A stretch of 64,000 nt of DNA from Phaeobacter italicus (GTDB lineage Bacteria; Pseudomonadota; Alphaproteobacteria; Rhodobacterales; Rhodobacteraceae), in contig NZ_CVRM01000001.1 of NCBI RefSeq assembly GCF_001258055.1, positions 62,001 through 126,000 on the forward strand, read 5' to 3'. Below the pieces are notes generated by a model, which saw only the letters and a program-made list of their open reading frames with translations, had not been told where the DNA came from and made no database searches. Below are positions 33,030 through 45,820 of the stretch, piece after piece (within the stretch, counting starts at the first letter, position 1; each line of letters starts with the position of its first letter). The position numbers and the translations under genes were made by a program.

Positions 33030-33902
33030 CTATGTAAATTTTCTGAAAAGCCGGGTCGTATCGAAGATGGTATCGAGCTTTTCATACCGCGCCCGGGTCT
33101 CGTCCCAGCGCTCTTCCTGAGCCGCAGAGATCATCGCCTCAAGCAGCATCATGGTTGAAATATTGGAATCCCAGGCGGATGGGATCTCAACCCAGCAGTT
33201 GAACGTATGCGCAGCAACGCTGTTGATCGGGCTTGACCATTGATCGGTGATCAAGATGACAGAAACCCCACGCTCGGCCGCCAGTTCGGCAAGGCGCTGG
33301 AGGTTGGTTTCATACCGCCGCACATCAAACATCAGCAGCGTGTCGCCTTCGACCATATCCAGCACGTAATGCGGCCAGGTGGCCGATGACGATGTCATAT
33401 GCGTGACACGTTGGCGGATCGCCTGAAAGTGGGTGAAGGCATAGTCAGCAAGCGCCCGCGTGATGCGCCCCCCCACCACGTAAAGCCGCCCTTCGGTATT
33501 TGCGAGCTGGCGCACGGCCGCGTCGAACTGCTCTGAATCCACATTCGAAAATGTCTGACTGAGGTTCTCGGTAACTGCCTGTGCAAATCTGTTCAGCAGG
33601 TGGCCTTCGGGTGCTTCGGACGCCCAGTTGGCGCGCCGCTGCGTGGGGCCTGAACCCTTTGCCTCCAGCTCTTTCAGCAGGGCCTGATGAAACTGCGGAT
33701 ACCCTTTGAAGCCCAGCTTTTGCACCATCCGCGCCACGGTTGGCGTCGACACCTCGGCATTGGAGGCGACGATCGTGATCGATGCCAGCCCCGCAGCCGG
33801 ATAATTCGCAAGAAGCGCATTGGCGAATTTCTTCTCCGATTGCGTCAACGCCGAATATTGATCCCGGATCAGCTCTCTGACGGTGCTGGGCGGTTTGGTC
33901 AC
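33030..33902 (-). CDS. MurR/RpiR family transcriptional regulator
   Basis: A 290-residue regulator. The N-terminal HTH_6 domain (ALTQSEKKFANALLANYPAAGLASITIVASNAEVSTPTVARMVQKLGFKGYPQF, family consensus) is followed by a SIS domain (about 130-260, with LYVVGGRITRALADYAFTHFQAI and VILITDQWSSPI). SIS domains usually sense phosphosugars, but RpiR members in Roseobacters also control amine and amino-acid pathways. It is divergent from the amidohydrolase-TRAP operon; two GAAA-N3-TTTC palindromes in the gap are candidate operators. Confidence 0.88.
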   Translation of the reverse strand: MTKPPSTVRELIRDQYSALTQSEKKFANALLANYPAAGLASITIVASNAEVSTPTVARMVQKLGFKGYPQFHQALLKELEAKGSGPTQRRANWASEAPEGHLLNRFAQAVTENLSQTFSNVDSEQFDAAVRQLANTEGRLYVVGGRITRALADYAFTHFQAIRQRVTHMTSSSATWPHYVLDMVEGDTLLMFDVRRYETNLQRLAELAAERGVSVILITDQWSSPINSVAAHTFNCWVEIPSAWDSNISTMMLLEAMISAAQEERWDETRARYEKLDTIFDTTRLFRKFT

Positions 33903-33977
33903 AGGCAGGCTACCTCATCAACTTTGCCCGTCAATTAAGCACGTCTGGCGTCCAAAAACCAGCATGGGGCGGGCGGT

Positions 33978-33988
33978 GAAACTCTTTC
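33978..33988. promoter_or_regulatory. candidate RpiR operator 1
   Basis: GAAA-CTC-TTTC, just upstream of a perfect TTGACA -35 hexamer at 33999. Same half-sites and spacing as operator 2, centred 43 bp (about four helical turns) away. Confidence 0.45.
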
Positions 33989-34019
33989 TGAAAATATATT
34001 GACACAAACCGATCTGCAT

Positions 34020-34032
34020 GAAAACATTTTTC
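34020..34032. promoter_or_regulatory. candidate RpiR operator 2
   Basis: GAAAA-CAT-TTTTC, a perfect 5-bp inverted repeat covering the expected -10 region (34022-34027) 17 nt after TTGACA. Binding here would block the amidohydrolase-TRAP operon. Confidence 0.5.
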
Positions 34033-34052
34033 CAAAATACAGGGAGACCCCA

Positions 34053-34877
34053 ATGCCGCTGAGCGATTCCAACGCTCCTACCTCCGGCCTGCCAGACGAT
34101 CTCGACGTGCCGGTCGAGGTCTGGAATGCCGATGGCTCTGGCGATGTGCTGGTGCTGTGCGAACACGCCAGCAACCACATCCCCGCGCGCTATGACGGCC
34201 TTGGTCTGTCGCACGCTGACAGTGAAAGCCATGCAGCCTGGGATCCGGGCGCACGCGCGGTTGCCTTGGGGCTGGCGCAGGCGCTTAATGCCCCGATGGT
34301 GGCAAGCCGGGTGTCCCGCCTGGTCTATGACTGCAACCGCCCGCCCGAAGCCCCAAGCGCGATGCCTGCCAAGTCAGAGCTGATTGAGGTGCCGGGCAAT
34401 CGCGATCTGGATGACGCCGCTCGTGCCGAACGCACCGATGCCGTCTACCGGCCCTTCTGTGCCGCGGTGAGCGAGCTGATCGAGAAACGCACCCTTGAGG
34501 GGCGCCCACCGGTTTTGATCACCGTCCACAGCTTTACCCCTGTCTATTACGGCAAGCCGCGCGCGGTTGAGATCGGCATCCTGCACGACACGGACACACG
34601 GCTTGCCGATCTGATGCTGGAGGCCGCCTCGGCCCTGCCAGACCGGCTGGTCGAGCGCAACAGCCCCTATGGCCCCGAAGATGGTGTCACCCACAGCCTG
34701 GTGTTGCATGGGGTGAACAACGGGCTTGCCAATGTGATGATTGAAATCCGCAACGACCTCGTGCGCGACAGTGCCGAGGAAGCCCAGATGACCGAAGAGC
34801 TGCTGGTGCTGCTGCGCCCGGCCCTTGCGCATCTGGCAGCTGCGGCCCCGGCAACGGAAGGAGCCGACAATGCCTAG
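34053..34877 (+). CDS. N-formylglutamate amidohydrolase family protein, candidate gamma-glutamyl amide hydrolase
   Basis: A 274-residue FGase-family zinc hydrolase. Motifs: LCEHASNHIPARYDGLGL (metal-binding His), SRLVYDCNRPPEAPSAMP and ITVHSFTPVYYGKPR. HutG-type enzymes cleave N-formylglutamate in histidine catabolism, but no hut genes are nearby. Instead it heads an operon with a TRAP importer, followed by a glutamine-synthetase-like ligase and two dehydrogenases. A role in removing glutamate from a gamma-glutamylated product fits better (inference). ATG 34053 follows AGGGAGA; its stop overlaps the next gene by 8 nt. Confidence 0.82.
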   Translation: MPLSDSNAPTSGLPDDLDVPVEVWNADGSGDVLVLCEHASNHIPARYDGLGLSHADSESHAAWDPGARAVALGLAQALNAPMVASRVSRLVYDCNRPPEAPSAMPAKSELIEVPGNRDLDDAARAERTDAVYRPFCAAVSELIEKRTLEGRPPVLITVHSFTPVYYGKPRAVEIGILHDTDTRLADLMLEAASALPDRLVERNSPYGPEDGVTHSLVLHGVNNGLANVMIEIRNDLVRDSAEEAQMTEELLVLLRPALAHLAAAAPATEGADNA

Positions 34878-35466
34878 TGTGATCAAAGGCTACGTTCGCG
34901 CAATCGATGCCATGAACCGCTTTATCGGGCGCATTGCGATGTACCTGATCTTTGCCCTGGTTGGGGTTCTGTTGTGGTCGTCGATCTCGAAGACGTTTTT
35001 CAACCCGTCCCTCTGGACGCTGGAGACTGCACAATTCGTGATGGTCGCCTACTACATTCTGGGTGGCCCCTATTCGATCCAGATGGGATCAAATGTGCGG
35101 ATGGACCTGTTTTACGGTGCCTGGTCGCTGAAGACCAAAGCCTGGGTCGATGCCTTTACCGTACTGTTCCTGATGTTCTACCTCGGGGTGCTGTTTTACG
35201 GCGCGGTCAGCTCCACGGCCTATTCACTGGGGTATTTCGGGCTTGAGCCGTTCCAGTTCTTTGGAGATCTGCTGAAAACCCTCATGACCGAAGGCCTTGA
35301 TGCGGCCAGCGCCAAGCTGGGCTATCTGGAGCGCAGCTCTACCGCCTGGCGCCCCTTCCTGTGGCCGGTCAAAACCATCCTGTGCCTCGGTGTCTTCTTG
35401 ATGCTGCTGCAATGCCTTGCCGAACTGTTCCGTGATCTCGGACGCCTTCGCGGAGACGAATTCTAA
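34870..35466 (+). CDS. TRAP transporter small permease (DctQ family)
   Basis: A 198-residue membrane protein with four main hydrophobic helices, the DctQ layout. WTLETAQFVMVAYYILGGPYSIQMGSNVRMDLFY near residue 55 is the conserved loop (usual form: GG-Y-L-x5-VRVD). A polar insert around residues 130-165 makes it longer than the common 160-170 residues, a feature of some TRAP systems for larger or charged solutes. ATG 34870 lies inside the preceding gene's end; its TAA overlaps the dctM start. Confidence 0.9.
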   Translation: MPSVIKGYVRAIDAMNRFIGRIAMYLIFALVGVLLWSSISKTFFNPSLWTLETAQFVMVAYYILGGPYSIQMGSNVRMDLFYGAWSLKTKAWVDAFTVLFLMFYLGVLFYGAVSSTAYSLGYFGLEPFQFFGDLLKTLMTEGLDAASAKLGYLERSSTAWRPFLWPVKTILCLGVFLMLLQCLAELFRDLGRLRGDEF

Positions 35467-36968
35467 TGCCTTATGAACTCATCGCCATCGTGATGTTTGC
35501 CGGCATGATGCTGATGCTGATGACCGGCCAGCGCGTGTTTGGTGCCATCGGATTTGTCGGCGCTTTGGCTGGACTGCTGCTTTGGGGTACAGGCGGGAGT
35601 GAAATTCCCTTCTCTGCGGCCATGAAGCTGATGAAATGGTATCCGCTGCTGACGCTGCCGATGTTCATCTTCATGGGTTACGTTCTGTCGGAATCCAAGA
35701 TCGCGGACGATCTCTATCGGATGTTCCACGTGTGGATGGGGCCGGTCAAAGGCGGGCTTGCGATTGGCACAATCGGCCTGATGGTCCTGATTTCAGCGAT
35801 GAACGGTCTGTCTGTTGCCGGTATGGCCATCGGCGCCACCATCGCCCTGCCCGAACTGCTGCGCCGGGGCTATGACAAGACGCTGGTGACAGGGACCATT
35901 CAGGCCGGATCATCATTGGGCATTCTGGTGCCGCCCTCTGTTGTGCTGGTCCTTTATGCGATGATCGCCCGCCAGCCGGTTGGCCAGCTGTGGCTTGCAG
36001 GCGTTGTGCCGGGCCTGTTGATGGCGACGATGTTCATTGTCTACATCTACCTGCGCGCCCGGATGCAGCCTGAGCTTGGCCCCGCCATGAGCCCCGAGGA
36101 CCTGGCCGAATATGACCGCATCAGCGACCACCCGCTGCGCCTGAATTACATTGTTCTGGGCACGCTGATCCTGGTGCCACTGGCCGCCATGATGGGCCTG
36201 CTGGAGGCCAAACCGGCCGCGGGTCTTGCGCTGGCGCTCTTGGCTGTTGGGTTTGTGACCCGCAAGATCCCTGCATGTTATCACGACGTGTTCATGGCGG
36301 AAAAATACCGGTTGCTGTTCTCTGGCGTGCTGCCGCTGGCGATCTTTGCCACCATGATGGTGCCCTTCGTCAACGGATGGACCTCGCTGGTGGAAAGTTC
36401 GGCCATCGGAGCCATGACCGCCTTTATCGCGGCCATCCTGAAGGGCCGGATGAACAAGGAGGTGTTTGAAACCTCCGTGCGCTCGACGCTTGGGATTTCC
36501 TGCATGTTCATGTGGATCATCCTCGCAGCCCTCGGCTTTGGCGCGATCTTTGACGGGCTTGGCGCGGTGAAGGCGATCGAGGATCTGTTTACCACGCAGC
36601 TGGGCCTGTCGCCCTGGATGATCCTGATCCTGATGCAGCTCAGCTTTATCGTGATGGGCACATTCCTGGATGACACCGCTATGCTGGTGATCGTGGCCCC
36701 CCTTTATGTGCCGCTGGTGGGCGCGCTGGGGTTCGATCTGATCTGGTATGGCGTCCTTTATACCATCACCACCCAGATCGCTTACATGACCCCGCCTTTC
36801 GGCTACAACCTGTTCCTGATGCGCGCGATGGCCCCGCCCGAGATCGGGCTCAAGGACATCTATGTCTCGATCATCCCCTTTGCTGCCGTCATGGTCGTGG
36901 CCTTGGCCCTGGTGATGATCTTCCCGCAGATCGCTCTTTGGCTGCCAGAATTTGTTTACGGAAAATAA
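35466..36968 (+). CDS. TRAP transporter large permease (DctM family)
   Basis: A 500-residue polytopic carrier with about 12-13 membrane segments. Landmarks are PLLTLPMFIFMGYVLSES, SAMNGLSVAGMAIGATIALPELLRRGYDK, and SSLGILVPPSVVLVLYAMIARQPVG (the scoop-loop region). GTFLDDTAMLVIVAPLYVPLV near 395 is the Na+-site/second hairpin region. The start overlaps the dctQ stop (TAATG). Together with DctP this gives sodium-driven uptake. Confidence 0.94.
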   Translation: MPYELIAIVMFAGMMLMLMTGQRVFGAIGFVGALAGLLLWGTGGSEIPFSAAMKLMKWYPLLTLPMFIFMGYVLSESKIADDLYRMFHVWMGPVKGGLAIGTIGLMVLISAMNGLSVAGMAIGATIALPELLRRGYDKTLVTGTIQAGSSLGILVPPSVVLVLYAMIARQPVGQLWLAGVVPGLLMATMFIVYIYLRARMQPELGPAMSPEDLAEYDRISDHPLRLNYIVLGTLILVPLAAMMGLLEAKPAAGLALALLAVGFVTRKIPACYHDVFMAEKYRLLFSGVLPLAIFATMMVPFVNGWTSLVESSAIGAMTAFIAAILKGRMNKEVFETSVRSTLGISCMFMWIILAALGFGAIFDGLGAVKAIEDLFTTQLGLSPWMILILMQLSFIVMGTFLDDTAMLVIVAPLYVPLVGALGFDLIWYGVLYTITTQIAYMTPPFGYNLFLMRAMAPPEIGLKDIYVSIIPFAAVMVVALALVMIFPQIALWLPEFVYGK

Positions 36969-37019
36969 CCCCCAGAAGAGCCCCGCAAGGGGGCCGGAAT
37001 TTCAACACGGAGAGAACTG

Positions 37020-38054
37020 ATGACAACAAGACGTAAGTTTCTGCAAACCGCCGGTGTTGGCGCCATGGCGGCACCGCTGGCAACCCCTGCTCTGGCGCAG
37101 TCCACCATCAAATGGCGGATGCAGACCTATGCGGGTGCGGCGCTGGCCGAGCATGTGGTGAAACCCGCCATCGACATGTTCAACAAGATCGCAGGCGACC
37201 GCATGCAGATCGAACTCTATTTTGCCGACCAGCTGGTGCCGACCGGCGAATTGTTCCGCGCCATGCAGCGTGGCACCATCGATGCGGTGCAGTCCGATGA
37301 TGACTCCATGGCCTCACCCACCGAAGTCACCGTTTTTGGCGGCTACTTCCCCTTTGCGTCCCGCTATTCCCTTGACGTGCCGGTGCTGTTCAACAAATAC
37401 GGTCTGAACGAAATCTGGGACGAGGAATATTCCAAGGTCGGCGTCAAACATATCTCGGCCGGTGCCTGGGATCCCTGCCACTTTGCCACCAAAGACCCGA
37501 TCCGCAGCCTCGCGGACCTGAAGGGCAAGCGCGTCTTCACCTTCCCGACCGCTGGCCGCTTCCTGAGCCAGTTCGGCGTCGTCCCCGTCACCCTGCCGTG
37601 GGAAGACATCGAAGTCGCGATGCAAACGGGCGAATTGGACGGCATCGCATGGTCCGGCATCACCGAAGACTACACCGTTGGCTGGGCAGATGTGACCAAC
37701 TACTTCCTGACCAACAACATCTCCGGCGCCTGGGCGGGCTCCTTCTTTGCCAACCAGGGCCGCTGGAACGAACTGCCGGAAGATCTGCAGACCCTGTTCC
37801 GCGTCTGCTGTGACCAGTCGCATTACTACCGTCAGTGGTGGTACTGGGGTGGCGAGGCAGACCTGCGCGTCAACGGTCCGAAAATGGAGCTGACCTCGAT
37901 CCCCGATGCCGAATGGGCAACGGTCGAGGAAGCCGCCTACAAGTTCTGGGATGAGATCGCAGCCGAAAGCCCGACCAAGGCGCGTGTTGTCGAAATCATC
38001 AAGAAGTACAACGCAGACATGCAAAAAGCTGGCCGCCCCTACCGTTACGGTTAA
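37020..38054 (+). CDS. TRAP transporter solute-binding protein (DctP family), Tat-exported
   Basis: A 344-residue periplasmic protein. The signal has a twin-arginine start (MTTRRKFLQTAG) and ends near ALAQS. The fold carries the expected substrate-carboxylate Arg region (FPTAGRFLSQFGVVPVTLPWEDIEVAMQTGELDGIAWSG). Many Trp/Tyr residues follow (HYYRQWWYWGG), suggesting an aromatic cage for a cationic or amine-bearing ligand. That would agree with the amine-type pathway proposed for the cluster. Confidence 0.92.
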   Translation: MTTRRKFLQTAGVGAMAAPLATPALAQSTIKWRMQTYAGAALAEHVVKPAIDMFNKIAGDRMQIELYFADQLVPTGELFRAMQRGTIDAVQSDDDSMASPTEVTVFGGYFPFASRYSLDVPVLFNKYGLNEIWDEEYSKVGVKHISAGAWDPCHFATKDPIRSLADLKGKRVFTFPTAGRFLSQFGVVPVTLPWEDIEVAMQTGELDGIAWSGITEDYTVGWADVTNYFLTNNISGAWAGSFFANQGRWNELPEDLQTLFRVCCDQSHYYRQWWYWGGEADLRVNGPKMELTSIPDAEWATVEEAAYKFWDEIAAESPTKARVVEIIKKYNADMQKAGRPYRYG

Positions 38055-38164
38055 GGCCCGCTCTCAAATCATGGGTTTGGCCCGGTCCCTACGGGCCAAA
38101 CCCCTTCACAACGAATTTGCCCAACTTCCTGAAAAGTTGCGGCCTCAGATGCAAAGGGCTGCTC

Positions 38165-39517
38165 ATGCTCTCCTTCGACACACTCAAAGACCAGGTTAGC
38201 ACTGGTGCGGTTGATACGGTTCTTGTCTGCCTTGTTGACATGCAGGGTCGCCTTATGGGCAAGCGTTTTCACGCCAAGCATTTCGTGAATGGCGCCTGGG
38301 AAGAGACCCATTGCTGCAACTATCTTCTGGCCACGGATCTGGCGATGGCGACGCCGGATGGCTATGCGTCGACCAGCTGGGAAAACGGCTATGGCGATTA
38401 TGTCATGAAGCCGGATCTGGCGACCTTGCGCCCGGTGCCCTGGCTTGAGGGCACGGTGATGGTGCTGTGTGATGTGCTGGATCATCACAGTCACGAAGAG
38501 GTGCCGCATTCGCCGCGCGCGATCCTGAAGCGCCAGGTCAACCGTCTCAAGGAGATGGGGTTTGACGCGATGTGCGCAACCGAGCTGGAGTTCTTTCTCT
38601 TTGAAAAGAGCTTTGATGCGATCCGCAAGTCGGGCTTTCGCGATCTGGAGCCGATCTCGGGCTACAATGAAGACTACAGCATCCTGCAGACCAGCCGCGA
38701 AGAGCACGTGCTGCGTCCGATCCGCAACCACCTGTGGGACGCGGGCCTGCCGATCGAGAACTCCAAGGGCGAGGCAGAGACCGGTCAGGAAGAGCTGAAC
38801 ATCAAATACGCCGCGGCGATGGACACGGCGGAATTCCACACCATCGCCAAACATGCGGTGAAGGAGATTGCCCAGCAACAGGGCCATGCGGTGACCTTCC
38901 TGCCGAAATGGCATAACGACAAGGTCGGCTCGTCCTCTCATGTGCATCAGTCGCTGTGGCAGGACGGCAAGCCTGCGTTCTTTGACGACAGCGACGAGCT
39001 GGGCATGTCACCCCTGATGAAGAATTACATGGCGGGATTGCTGAAATACGCGCCCGACTACACCGCCTTCATGGCGCCCTACATCAACAGCTACAAACGC
39101 TTCATGAAGGGCACCTTTGCCCCCACCCGGATCATCTGGTCGGTGGACAACCGCACCGCGGGCTATCGCCTGTGTGGCGTCGGCAGCAAGGCCATCCGCG
39201 TCGAATGCCGCATTCCGGGTTCGGACATGAACCCCTATCTGGCCATCGCAGGCATGCTGGCTGCGGGTATTGCGGGCATCGAGGAGGGTCTGGAGCTGCA
39301 GGCGCCCACCAAGGGCGATGTCTATCAGGGCGACACCGGCATGATCCCCGGCACCCTGCGCGACGCGGCGGCGGCGCTCAAGGGCTCTGCCATGTTGCGC
39401 GCCGCAATGGGCGATGACGTGGTGGATCACTACGTGCGCGCGGCAGAGGTGGAAATCGAGGATTTCGAGCGGATCGTGACCGACTACGAAATTGCCCGCG
39501 GGTTCGAGCGCGCCTGA
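38165..39517 (+). CDS. glutamine synthetase family protein, candidate gamma-glutamyl-amine ligase
   Basis: A 450-residue glutamine-synthetase-fold enzyme. It has ATELEFFLFEK (metal-binding Glu), GSSSHVHQSLW (equivalent of the GS NGSGMHxH loop), PTRIIWSVDNRTAGYRLCGVG and RVECRIPGSDMNPYLAIAGMLAAG. Overall it resembles PuuA/IpuC/GlnT-type gamma-glutamyl ligases rather than GlnA; it lacks the C-terminal adenylylation motif. Such enzymes condense glutamate with an amine before oxidation. ATG 38165 is chosen over an upstream in-frame start at 38117 that adds unrelated sequence. Confidence 0.88.
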   Translation: MLSFDTLKDQVSTGAVDTVLVCLVDMQGRLMGKRFHAKHFVNGAWEETHCCNYLLATDLAMATPDGYASTSWENGYGDYVMKPDLATLRPVPWLEGTVMVLCDVLDHHSHEEVPHSPRAILKRQVNRLKEMGFDAMCATELEFFLFEKSFDAIRKSGFRDLEPISGYNEDYSILQTSREEHVLRPIRNHLWDAGLPIENSKGEAETGQEELNIKYAAAMDTAEFHTIAKHAVKEIAQQQGHAVTFLPKWHNDKVGSSSHVHQSLWQDGKPAFFDDSDELGMSPLMKNYMAGLLKYAPDYTAFMAPYINSYKRFMKGTFAPTRIIWSVDNRTAGYRLCGVGSKAIRVECRIPGSDMNPYLAIAGMLAAGIAGIEEGLELQAPTKGDVYQGDTGMIPGTLRDAAAALKGSAMLRAAMGDDVVDHYVRAAEVEIEDFERIVTDYEIARGFERA

Positions 39518-39536
39518 GGCGCGCAGAGCCTTCGGC

Positions 39537-39566
39537 GAGAGTATTTTTGGAAAGATGACGATGGGG
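39537..39566 (+). repeat. dispersed intergenic repeat, copy 1
   Basis: GAGTATTTTTGGAAAGATGACG lies between the ligase and aldehyde dehydrogenase genes. A near-identical inverted copy flanks the other side of the dehydrogenase gene. Confidence 0.65.
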
Positions 39567-39599
39567 GCGCCGCCCCTGTCAAACCACATGAGGAAGACC

Positions 39600-40982
39600 A
39601 TGGGCCAGACCCTGAAATGTATCTCTCCGATCGACGGATCGGTCTATGCCGAGCGTGAAACGCTGTCGCCCGAGGCCGCAGCAGAGCGCGCCGCAGCAGC
39701 GCGCAGCGCCCAGGCCGCCTGGGCCGCGCGCCCCCTGCAGGAGCGCATCGACCTGGTGATGGCCGGTGTGGCTGCTGTTGGGGCGATGAACGACGAGATC
39801 GTGCCCGAGCTGGCCCATATGATGGGCCGACCGGTGCGCTATGGCGGCGAGTTCGGCGGCTTCAATGAGCGCGCAAGCCATATGGCGAAGATCGCTGCAG
39901 AGTCGCTGGCGGACATCGAGGTGGGCGAAGACGCCACATTCAAACGCTACATCAAGCGCGTGCCCCACGGTGTCGTGCTGGTGGTCGCGCCCTGGAACTA
40001 CCCCTATATGACCGCGATCAACACCGTGGCCCCTGCCCTGATTGCGGGCAATACGGTGGTTCTGAAACACGCCACCCAGACGCTCCTGGTGGGCGAGCGC
40101 ATGGCGCGGGCCTTCCAGTCGGCGGGGGTTCCGGCGGATGTGTTCCAGAATGTCTTCCTGGATCACGACACCACTTCCGCGCTGATCGCAGACCGCGCGT
40201 TTGACTTCGTGAACTTCACCGGCTCCGTCGGTGGCGGTCAGGCGATGGAACGCGCCGCAGCGGGCACTTTTACCGGCGTCGGCACCGAGCTGGGCGGCAA
40301 GGATCCGGGCTATGTGATGGAAGACGCCGATCTGGACGCGGCGGTGGACACGCTGATCGATGGCGCCATGTTCAACGCAGGCCAGTGCTGCTGCGGCATC
40401 GAGCGGATCTATGTCCATGAAAGCCTTTACGATGCCTTTGTCGAAAAGGCCGTGGCGATCGTCAACAGCTACAAGCTGGGCAATCCGCTGGAGGCCGACA
40501 CCACCATTGGCCCGATGGCCAATGTGCGCTTTGCACAGGAGGTGCGCGCCCAGATCGCCGAGGCGCTCGAGGCCGGTGCCGTGGCCCATATCGCGCCCTT
40601 CGCCGAGGATGATGGCGGCGCCTATCTCACCCCGCAGATCCTGACCAATGTGAGCCATGACATGCGGGTGATGCGCGACGAGAGCTTTGGCCCGGTGGTG
40701 GGCATCATGAAAGTCACCTCCGACGAGGAGGCCATCCAGTTGATGAATGACAGCGAATTTGGTCTCACCGCCTCGCTGTGGACGCGCGATGTCGAGCGCG
40801 CGGCGCGGGTTGGCGATCAGATCGAAACCGGCACCGTCTTCATGAACCGCGCCGATTACCTGGACCCCGGCCTGTGCTGGACCGGCTGCAAGAACACCGG
40901 GCGTGGGGGCGGCCTGTCGGTCATCGGCTTCCACAACCTCACCCGCCCGAAATCCTATCACCTGAAAAAGGTCACGGGCTGA
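39600..40982 (+). CDS. aldehyde dehydrogenase (NAD(P)+)
   Basis: A 460-residue ALDH-superfamily enzyme. It shows VVLVVAPWNYPYMTAINTVAPALIAGN (cofactor site), FTGSVGGG, TELGGKDPGYV (general-base Glu) and FNAGQCCCGIERIYV (nucleophilic Cys with two neighbouring Cys). In this cluster it would oxidise a gamma-glutamyl-aminoaldehyde to the acid. ATG 39600 follows AGGAAG; the open frame extends upstream through the repeat and is ignored. Confidence 0.92.
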   Translation: MGQTLKCISPIDGSVYAERETLSPEAAAERAAAARSAQAAWAARPLQERIDLVMAGVAAVGAMNDEIVPELAHMMGRPVRYGGEFGGFNERASHMAKIAAESLADIEVGEDATFKRYIKRVPHGVVLVVAPWNYPYMTAINTVAPALIAGNTVVLKHATQTLLVGERMARAFQSAGVPADVFQNVFLDHDTTSALIADRAFDFVNFTGSVGGGQAMERAAAGTFTGVGTELGGKDPGYVMEDADLDAAVDTLIDGAMFNAGQCCCGIERIYVHESLYDAFVEKAVAIVNSYKLGNPLEADTTIGPMANVRFAQEVRAQIAEALEAGAVAHIAPFAEDDGGAYLTPQILTNVSHDMRVMRDESFGPVVGIMKVTSDEEAIQLMNDSEFGLTASLWTRDVERAARVGDQIETGTVFMNRADYLDPGLCWTGCKNTGRGGGLSVIGFHNLTRPKSYHLKKVTG

Positions 40983-40983
40983 G

Positions 40984-41048
40984 CCCCGTCATCTTTCCGA
41001 AAAATACTCCGGGGGGCTTGCCGCAGGGCAAGCGGGGGCAGCGCCCCC
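40984..41048 (-). repeat. dispersed intergenic repeat, copy 2, with two GC-rich hairpins
   Basis: On the minus strand GAGTATTTTTCGGAAAGATGACG (41009-40987) matches copy 1 with one inserted C. Beside it are two hairpins: GCTTGCC/GGCAAGC and GGGGGC/GCCCCC. Together they fill the gap between two dehydrogenase genes. Confidence 0.65.
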
Positions 41049-41076
41049 TCCCCGGCTTCATCACAGGAACACACCT

Positions 41077-42222
41077 ATGACACTTGTTGGAAACTGGTCC
41101 TATCCGACCGCAATCAAGTTTGGCGCTGGCCGGATCAAGGAGCTGGCCGAGGCCTGCGCGGCGGCGGGCATGAAAAAACCGCTTCTGGTCACCGACAAAG
41201 GCCTGGCAGATCTGCCGGTCACCCAATCCACGCTCGACATTCTGGAGGCCGCGGGCCTTGGCCGGGCGATGTTCTCGGATGTTGACCCCAACCCGAACGA
41301 GAAAAACCTCGACGCAGGTGTGGCCGCCTACAAGGCAGGCGATCATGACGGGGTGATTGCCTTTGGCGGCGGCTCGGGTCTCGATCTGGGCAAGATGGTC
41401 GCCTTCATGTGCGGCCAGAGCCGTCCGGTGTGGGATTTTGAAGACATCGGCGACTGGTGGACCCGCGCCGATGCCGATGCCATCGCGCCGATCATCGCGG
41501 TGCCGACCACGGCTGGCACCGGTTCCGAAGTGGGCCGCGCCTCTGTGATCACCGACAGTGTGACCCATCAGAAAAAGATCATCTTCCACCCCAAGGTGCT
41601 GCCCACGGTGGTGATCTGCGACCCCGAACTGACCGTCGGCATGCCCAAGTTCATCACCGCAGGCACCGGTTTGGACGCCTTTGCCCATTGTGTCGAGGCG
41701 TTCTCCAGCCCCCATTACCACCCGATGTCCCAGGGCATCGCGCTGGAAGGCATGCGCCTGGTCAAGGACTACCTGCCGCGCGCCTATGCCGATGGCAGCG
41801 ATATCGAAGCCCGCGCGCAGATGATGTCAGCCGCCGCCATGGGCGCCACCGCCTTCCAGAAAGGTCTGGGCGCCATCCACGCCATGAGCCACCCGATCGG
41901 CGCCGTCTTCAACACCCACCACGGCACCACCAATGCGGTCTGCATGCCCGCCGTGCTGGAGTTCAATGCCGACGCAATCGCCGAGCGCTTTGACATGGCA
42001 GCGGCCTACCTTGGCATCGATGGCGGCTTTGCGGGCTTCAAAAGCTATGTGCAGGAGCTCAACGACTCACTCGGCATCCCCCGCGGACTGGCCCAGCTCG
42101 GCGTCACCGAAGACTCCATCCCCCAGCTCGTCAAAGGCGCCCTCATCGACCCGTCCTGCGGCGGAAACCCTGTCGAACTGACCGAGGAAAACCTCACCCA
42201 GCTCTTCAAAAACGCAATGTAA
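41077..42222 (+). CDS. iron-containing alcohol dehydrogenase
   Basis: A 381-residue group III alcohol dehydrogenase. Cofactor motif: FGGGSGLDLGKMVAF near residue 95, and TTAGTGSEVGRASVITD near 148. Metal ligands are in GTGLDAFAHCVEAF (Asp/His), the downstream AIHAMSHPIGAVFNTHHGTTNAV (His) and the adjacent His. It likely oxidises the hydroxyl of a gamma-glutamylated amino alcohol to the aldehyde used by the preceding enzyme. It closes the RpiR cluster; a terminator follows. Confidence 0.93.
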   Translation: MTLVGNWSYPTAIKFGAGRIKELAEACAAAGMKKPLLVTDKGLADLPVTQSTLDILEAAGLGRAMFSDVDPNPNEKNLDAGVAAYKAGDHDGVIAFGGGSGLDLGKMVAFMCGQSRPVWDFEDIGDWWTRADADAIAPIIAVPTTAGTGSEVGRASVITDSVTHQKKIIFHPKVLPTVVICDPELTVGMPKFITAGTGLDAFAHCVEAFSSPHYHPMSQGIALEGMRLVKDYLPRAYADGSDIEARAQMMSAAAMGATAFQKGLGAIHAMSHPIGAVFNTHHGTTNAVCMPAVLEFNADAIAERFDMAAAYLGIDGGFAGFKSYVQELNDSLGIPRGLAQLGVTEDSIPQLVKGALIDPSCGGNPVELTEENLTQLFKNAM

Positions 42223-43039: not shown

Positions 43040-44886
<1,847 letters not shown>

Positions 44887-44917: not shown

Positions 44918-45820
44918 ATGCATAACCCGCGTCCCACTTTGCCCCCGCTGGAATGGATCCGGGTGTTTGAGGCTGCAGCCCGCACCGGCAGCTTTACCGC
45001 CGCGGCGGCGGAAACCGGGATCACCCAATCAGCCGTGAGCCAGCGGATCGCCCAGTTGGAGCAGCGCCTTGGCACCGCTTTGTTTCACCGCCACCCCCGC
45101 GCCATCACCCTCAGCGTCGAAGGAGAAGCCTGGCTGCCCCATGTGCAATCTGCTCTTGAAGGTATGCGCGACAGTTCCGAGGCGATTTTTGGATCTGGCC
45201 GGCGCCGGTTGGTTATCTCGGCCAGTCAAACGATTATTGACCTCTGGCTGATGCCCCGTCTCGGCCAGCTGGCCGAGGTCGCCCATGGCGAGATTTCTGT
45301 GCAAACAATGGTGACGGGGGCCCATGACGCGCCAGAGGATGATGTCATCCGGATCCGCTATGGCACCGGCGACTGGCCGCATCCCTACAAGCTGCCGCTA
45401 TATGGAGAGGCCCTCGCCCCGCTTGCGGCGCCGTCACTGCTGGAGGCAAGGGGGCGCGACTGGGCCCATCTGCCCCGCATTGCGTGTTCCGGCGCGCGCC
45501 CCGGATGGAGCGACTGGCTGGCCCGCCAAGGCGGCAGCAGCACACCGGTACCGCAGCTGCGATTTGACACGCATCTGTCCGCGCTCGGCGCTGCGCGCGC
45601 CGGAGCGGGGGTGGTATTGGGATCGCTGCCACTGGCAGAGGCAGACCTGCGCAGCGGGGCCCTGATCCGGCTGGAGGAGACCAGCCTGCCCCATCACGCG
45701 ACCTACTGGCTGATCGCCGGGCAAGACGCGCTGAGCCGGACGCAGTGGGATCAGATCCAGCAGATCGTCGGCGGTCGCCCCCTTGCGCAAAGCTCGCATA
45801 ATCAGGATGGGACACCCTAG
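44918..45820 (+). CDS. LysR family transcriptional regulator (GcvA-like)
   Basis: A 300-residue regulator. The N-terminal winged helix is PPLEWIRVFEAAARTGSFTAAAAETGITQSAVSQRIAQLEQRLGTALFHR in family form, with a C-terminal effector domain of the GcvA subgroup. Its divergent position to tmpA suggests it activates the phosphonate genes in response to 2-(trimethylamino)ethylphosphonate or a product such as glycine betaine (inference). The ribosome binding site is weak (AAGGTC). Confidence 0.88.
   Translation: MHNPRPTLPPLEWIRVFEAAARTGSFTAAAAETGITQSAVSQRIAQLEQRLGTALFHRHPRAITLSVEGEAWLPHVQSALEGMRDSSEAIFGSGRRRLVISASQTIIDLWLMPRLGQLAEVAHGEISVQTMVTGAHDAPEDDVIRIRYGTGDWPHPYKLPLYGEALAPLAAPSLLEARGRDWAHLPRIACSGARPGWSDWLARQGGSSTPVPQLRFDTHLSALGAARAGAGVVLGSLPLAEADLRSGALIRLEETSLPHHATYWLIAGQDALSRTQWDQIQQIVGGRPLAQSSHNQDGTP

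Follow-up and report, generated by a model that had tools for sequence, protein, structure and literature searches.

A predicted operon for ethanolamine uptake and gamma-glutamylation in Phaeobacter italicus, equivalent to the published operon of strain MED193

Results and discussion

We examined a stretch of 64,000 nucleotides from Phaeobacter italicus (NCBI RefSeq assembly GCF_001258055.1, contig NZ_CVRM01000001.1, positions 62,001 to 126,000; hereafter the window), which belongs to a genome of 4.05 Mb in 37 contigs. Eight genes at 33030-42222 of the window very probably form an operon for the uptake and catabolism of ethanolamine, as judged from our comparative analysis. The operon is the already published ethanolamine gamma-glutamylation operon, known from Phaeobacter/Roseobacter sp. 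MED193; the pathway is in print and no new mechanism is involved. All eight reading frames were found to be open and in place, with Pfam families in agreement. The side-by-side arrangement that the initial annotation had described, of an RpiR regulator, a formylglutamate amidohydrolase (FGase)-family hydrolase, a tripartite ATP-independent periplasmic (TRAP) importer, a ligase, an aldehyde dehydrogenase (ALDH) and an iron alcohol dehydrogenase (Fe-ADH), was thereby confirmed (Table 1). The genes stand in a tight row: neighbors either overlap by a few bases or are separated by about 50-110 bases.

In the proposed pathway, the binding protein EtoX would capture periplasmic ethanolamine and the DctQ/DctM pair would import it. 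The glutamine synthetase (GS)-like ligase would use ATP to join ethanolamine to the gamma-carboxyl of glutamate, after which the Fe-ADH would oxidize the hydroxyl to an aldehyde and the ALDH would convert the aldehyde to gamma-glutamylglycine. The FGase-family hydrolase would then release glycine and regenerate glutamate. The operon is probably regulated by RpiR, acting at the divergent promoter. This cycle of glutamylation, two oxidations and amide cleavage had been drawn from the sequence for an unspecified amino alcohol, and it coincides with the published ethanolamine pathway as given in the accessible portions of PMC10132767, PMC6529630 and PMC9397018. The proposed cycle is supported, and the unspecified amino alcohol can be narrowed to ethanolamine, the most likely substrate.

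Correspondence with the MED193 operon

The MED193 operon (MED193_10021-10056) is described in the available text of PMC10132767 as RpiR, gamma-glutamylglycine amidohydrolase (GGAH), EtoV, EtoW, EtoX, ethanolamine gamma-glutamylase (ETAGA), gamma-glutamyl-aminoacetaldehyde dehydrogenase (GAADDH) and gamma-glutamylethanolamide dehydrogenase (GETADH). All eight window proteins were matched in the same order and on the same strands, with RpiR divergent, at a MED193 locus (L167), which we infer to be the published one from the strain name and gene order. Protein identities were 87% for RpiR, 64% for GGAH, 79% for EtoV, 88% for EtoW, 94% for EtoX, 84% for ETAGA, 87% for GAADDH and 90% for GETADH. 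The MED193 genome has a single close EtoX (95%), which lies inside this locus, and the next of its seven matches reaches 28-29%. The sole difference found is that the window has tmpB and tmpA just downstream, which were not seen in the L167 stretch.

According to the same portions of PMC10132767, purified MED193 EtoX binds ethanolamine with a dissociation constant (Kd) of 7.9 uM, with no binding of phosphoethanolamine, phosphocholine or glycerol phosphates. They also report that levels of EtoX and of the four enzymes increase on phosphoethanolamine. In P. italicus itself, we infer import, glutamylation, the two oxidations, hydrolysis and RpiR control; the binding and induction data belong to the close MED193 homologues.

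Similar systems have been described further afield. The ethanolamine glutamylation pathway is called "demonstrated" in Chromohalobacter salexigens and Agrobacterium tumefaciens in the accessible text of PMC10132767, which cites earlier work. The C. salexigens/Agrobacterium pathway uses the same families as the window (PF00120, PF00465, PF00171 and PF05013; PMC9397018, as far as available). In Streptomyces coelicolor, GlnA4 (SCO1611-1615) is a gamma-glutamylethanolamide synthetase and is alike in its step, and Fe-dependent dehydrogenase, ALDH and FGase-family genes are assigned to the same subsequent steps; that system differs in its regulator, EpuRI, and a TRAP importer is not named in the available portions of PMC6529630 and PMC9397018.

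Distribution of the operon

EtoX was found at E 1e-60 or better in 108 of the 198 family genomes searched, the window's own included, and the route is therefore widespread in the family. Many marine bacteria presumably use this gene set to turn ethanolamine into glycine. Two sets of loci were compared, both of which lean to close relatives and may share species: 60 relatives' loci, from 60 genomes chosen by hand out of the 107 others with a match so as to sample high, intermediate and low identity, and 80 named loci, the 80 top-ranking among at least 590 obtained with the ligase. The full eight-gene order with the same strands recurs in 42/60 relatives' loci and 51/80 named loci, so the clustering of these genes is not a matter of chance. 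Loci titled Vreelandella and Halomonas (L147, L153) also carry the full order. At a locus from the same genus as the window (L081), the FGase (71% identical) and the ligase (84%) have diverged far more from those of the window than RpiR (96%), DctQ (93%), DctM (94%) and DctP (96%).

The Eut pathway was considered as another route and rejected: EutB, the ethanolamine ammonia-lyase, had no match in the P. italicus genome, with a positive Escherichia coli control. The glutamylation route does without the B12-dependent Eut lyase, and the lack of a EutB match fits a route without an ammonia-lyase.

Binding protein and ligand

The best Protein Data Bank (PDB) match of the window EtoX is 4UAB/4XF5 (E 4.6e-194), far ahead of the next match (E 4.5e-18); we take 4UAB to be Csal_0678 with ethanolamine. 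At the position of the carboxylate-selective Arg-147, the window protein has Phe173, whereas all eight further DctP proteins identified in this genome carry Arg there (8/8). Among the 121 EtoX homologues, from 140 loci, with a DctP alignment of at least 80% query coverage, 103 have Phe and 18 have Tyr at this position. The window protein is accordingly a TRAP binding protein that is close to MED193 EtoX and lacks an Arg-147 equivalent. TRAP binding proteins mostly use Arg for carboxylates. In the accessible portions of PMC4646407, the share of the family without this Arg is put at 3%, Phe is named as its most frequent substitute, and C. salexigens Csal_0678, which like the window EtoX lacks the Arg, is reported to bind ethanolamine. 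A segment singled out in the initial annotation, HYYRQWWYWGG, was located at DctP residues 268-278 and proved to be conserved: it is exact in 71/121 homologues, and its Arg is present in 121/121.

It is quite improbable that the same chemistry serves another or a broader amino alcohol, such as aminopropanols or N-methylethanolamine, in place of ethanolamine. In favor of this reading, the substrates of all four enzymes are predicted, the binding competitors named in the available text of PMC10132767 do not include aminopropanols, and some related ligase loci lack such TRAP genes and have other transporters and neighbours. One of these (L175) has an OpuAC-type binding protein and an M24 creatinase-like peptidase and lacks an FGase, which would possibly mean another hydrolase or another amine; a second (L190) has a phosphonate-type binding protein and also lacks an FGase. 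Against this stand the 94% identity of the window EtoX to the MED193 protein, whose affinity for ethanolamine has been measured, and its closeness to 4UAB; both favor ethanolamine.

It was also noted that in nine operons (L060, L126, L131, L137, L161, L169, L177, L182 and L193) the ligase is 71-85% identical to that of the window and EtoX only 60-64%. Such identities would fit an exchange of the binding protein between two lineages.

Ligase

The best PDB match of the ligase is 5DM3 (E 4.8e-235), presumably from the same species as Csal_0678. The nearest named relatives of the window ligase are from Leisingera (92-93%), followed by Ruegeria, Aliiroseovarius and MED193 (84-87%), which points to a probable Roseobacter-group host. 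Ligases of this type also glutamylate the amine in the pathways of IpuC (isopropylamine) and PuuA (putrescine), which differ from that of the window in their oxidation steps and hydrolases. The window ligase falls well below the gamma-glutamylputrescine synthetase cut-off (194 vs 650 bits).

An ordinary ammonia-using glutamine synthetase would share the catalytic domain of this protein. We rejected that identity, to which we assign a negligible probability, since the ligase does not reach the cut-offs for GlnA (TIGR00653; 251 vs 429 bits) or glutamine synthetase type III (TIGR03105; 236 vs 469.6 bits) and the genome has five further GS-family genes, 28-32% identical to it. The surroundings of close ligases in the 80 named loci likewise argue for the ethanolamine ligase, with an Fe-ADH of the window kind nearby in 73/80 and an ALDH in 73/80.

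The final hydrolysis

That an FGase-type enzyme should close the cycle had been put forward as new, a claim that is overtaken by the literature. The available portions of PMC6529630 and PMC9397018 assign this step to the formylglutamate amidohydrolase family (PF05013), a table in PMC9397018 lists PF05013 for it in C. salexigens, and in the accessible text of PMC10132767 the MED193 homologue, 64% identical to the window protein, is named gamma-glutamylglycine amidohydrolase, the word formylglutamate being absent from that text. The caution expressed about this step stands, as the published basis is family, context and induction. Our literature search found no assay of operon-type PF05013 gamma-glutamylglycine hydrolases, although the original C. 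salexigens work may contain enzyme data.

We then weighed whether the protein could be an N-formylglutamate deformylase (HutG) placed here by accident, given its membership of PF05013, a family named after that activity. Four PF05013 genes were found in the genome, one of which is a true HutG beside HutH and HutI on another contig, exceeding the TIGR02017 equivalog cut-off (369.7 vs 278.75 bits). The window FGase has no TIGR02017 match at E 0.001, and its identity to the three other PF05013 proteins of the genome is 19% (HutG), 20% and 37%. The one solved structure that it matches at E 0.001 is 2ODF (Atu2144). In addition, an FGase homologue accompanies the ligase, ALDH and Fe-ADH in 42/46 relatives' loci and 57/67 named loci (99/113 in total). 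The deformylase identity was therefore rejected and retains barely any likelihood.

By comparison, the window FGase is 37-71% identical to the cluster FGases (median 52%; n = 105, from 140 loci, alignments with at least 70% coverage kept). With this likeness and the low identity to HutG, there is good sequence-level support for placing the cluster FGases in a dedicated group that is separate from HutG.

Several points weigh against the reading as an ethanolamine operon. The three other enzymes occur with no FGase nearby in 14/113 loci, some of which are short contigs. The ligase is not beside the TRAP genes in 13/60 EtoX loci; nine of those 13 genomes have a close ligase elsewhere and four have none (E 1e-100). 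EtoX and the enzymes can therefore occur apart and do not make up a strict unit. The published oxidations and final hydrolysis are themselves predicted from family, context and expression in the available portions of PMC10132767, PMC6529630 and PMC9397018. We sought EutB as a substitute in the 60 relatives and found it over the cut-off in 1/60, a genome with EtoX and no close ligase (G138), while another genome with no close ligase (G046) gave nothing beyond two weak matches of 28 positions, both below the cut-off. As a single case, G138 proves little about substitution by Eut.

Gene features and regulatory region

Table 1. Features of the operon and its surroundings in the window
Feature	Position	Strand	Basis or remark
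RpiR-family regulator	33030-33902	-	HTH_6 + SIS (Pfam); divergent from operon
Probable operon promoter	33999-34032	+	TTGACA at 33999-34004; reading of the intergenic stretch
GAAAACATTTTTC, imperfect palindrome across the -10 region, candidate RpiR operator	34020-34032	+	Inference
FGase-family hydrolase, predicted gamma-glutamylglycine amidohydrolase (GGAH)	34053-34877	+	PF05013, 143 bits
TRAP small permease DctQ (EtoV)	34870-35466	+	Pfam; MED193 match
TRAP large permease DctM (EtoW)	35466-36968	+	Pfam; MED193 match
TRAP predicted ethanolamine-binding protein DctP (EtoX)	37020-38054	+	Pfam; 4UAB match; Phe173; MED193 match
Glutamine-synthetase-like predicted ethanolamine gamma-glutamylase	38162-39517	+	Gln-synt_C; 5DM3 match; MED193 match
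Aldedh, predicted gamma-glutamyl-aminoacetaldehyde dehydrogenase	39600-40982	+	Pfam; MED193 match
Fe-ADH, predicted gamma-glutamylethanolamide dehydrogenase	41077-42222	+	Pfam; MED193 match
TmpB	43040-43663	-	Over NCBIfam cut-off
TmpA	43660-44874	-	Over NCBIfam cut-off
LysR-like gene	44918-45820	+	Beside tmpBA

The first listed start of the FGase reading frame, the TTG at 33999, probably belongs to the -35 box TTGACA of the operon promoter, and the ATG at 34053 is the likely start of the gene. A 9-mer count aimed at a common RpiR operator returned mainly this -35 box. The commonest common 9-mer was ATATTGACA, present in 28/99 intergenic stretches including that of the window (a plain count, without statistical test).

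Neighboring genes and variant clusters

TmpB and TmpA, encoded just downstream of the operon, are 2-trimethylaminoethylphosphonate oxidation genes. We considered tmpAB as part of the system and rejected this, because linkage was seen in 1/60 relatives' loci (L081) and 0/80 named loci, within locus stretches of up to about 9-10 kb on each side, some of them cut by contig ends. The tmpAB genes thus lie outside the conserved operon.

Among the ligase loci with other neighbors in place of such TRAP genes, one (L121) has a sulfatase-fold enzyme, a DeoR regulator and a Na/Pi cotransporter-like gene, and a family search of another (L151) identified a DeoR regulator, a DAO-type oxidoreductase and an ABC binding protein. 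It was further noted that EtoX or the ligase set lies near glycerol kinase-, glycerol-3-phosphate dehydrogenase- or DeoR-like genes in L046, L048, L056, L059 and L151; these neighbors were read from mechanical open reading frames, with family searches for L151 only (DAO, DeoR). From their predicted families, the glycerol-type neighbors hint at the use of glycerophosphoethanolamine.

A wider proposal joins these observations, and we hold it tentatively, as a combination that is rather unlikely to be right in every part. The operon PF05013 proteins would be a gamma-glutamylglycine hydrolase group distinct from HutG. The variant clusters, with sulfatase/phosphodiesterase-fold, Na/Pi cotransporter-like or glycerol-3-phosphate dehydrogenase-like neighbors, would start from glycerophosphoethanolamine-type headgroups and not from free ethanolamine, and the operon together with tmpAB would in this genus make one island for several aminoethyl headgroups.

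Implications

The window adds one further carrier of the ethanolamine glutamylation operon, whose published pathway had been rebuilt in the initial annotation from the DNA alone. In the sea, the ethanolamine of membrane lipids supplies nitrogen and carbon.

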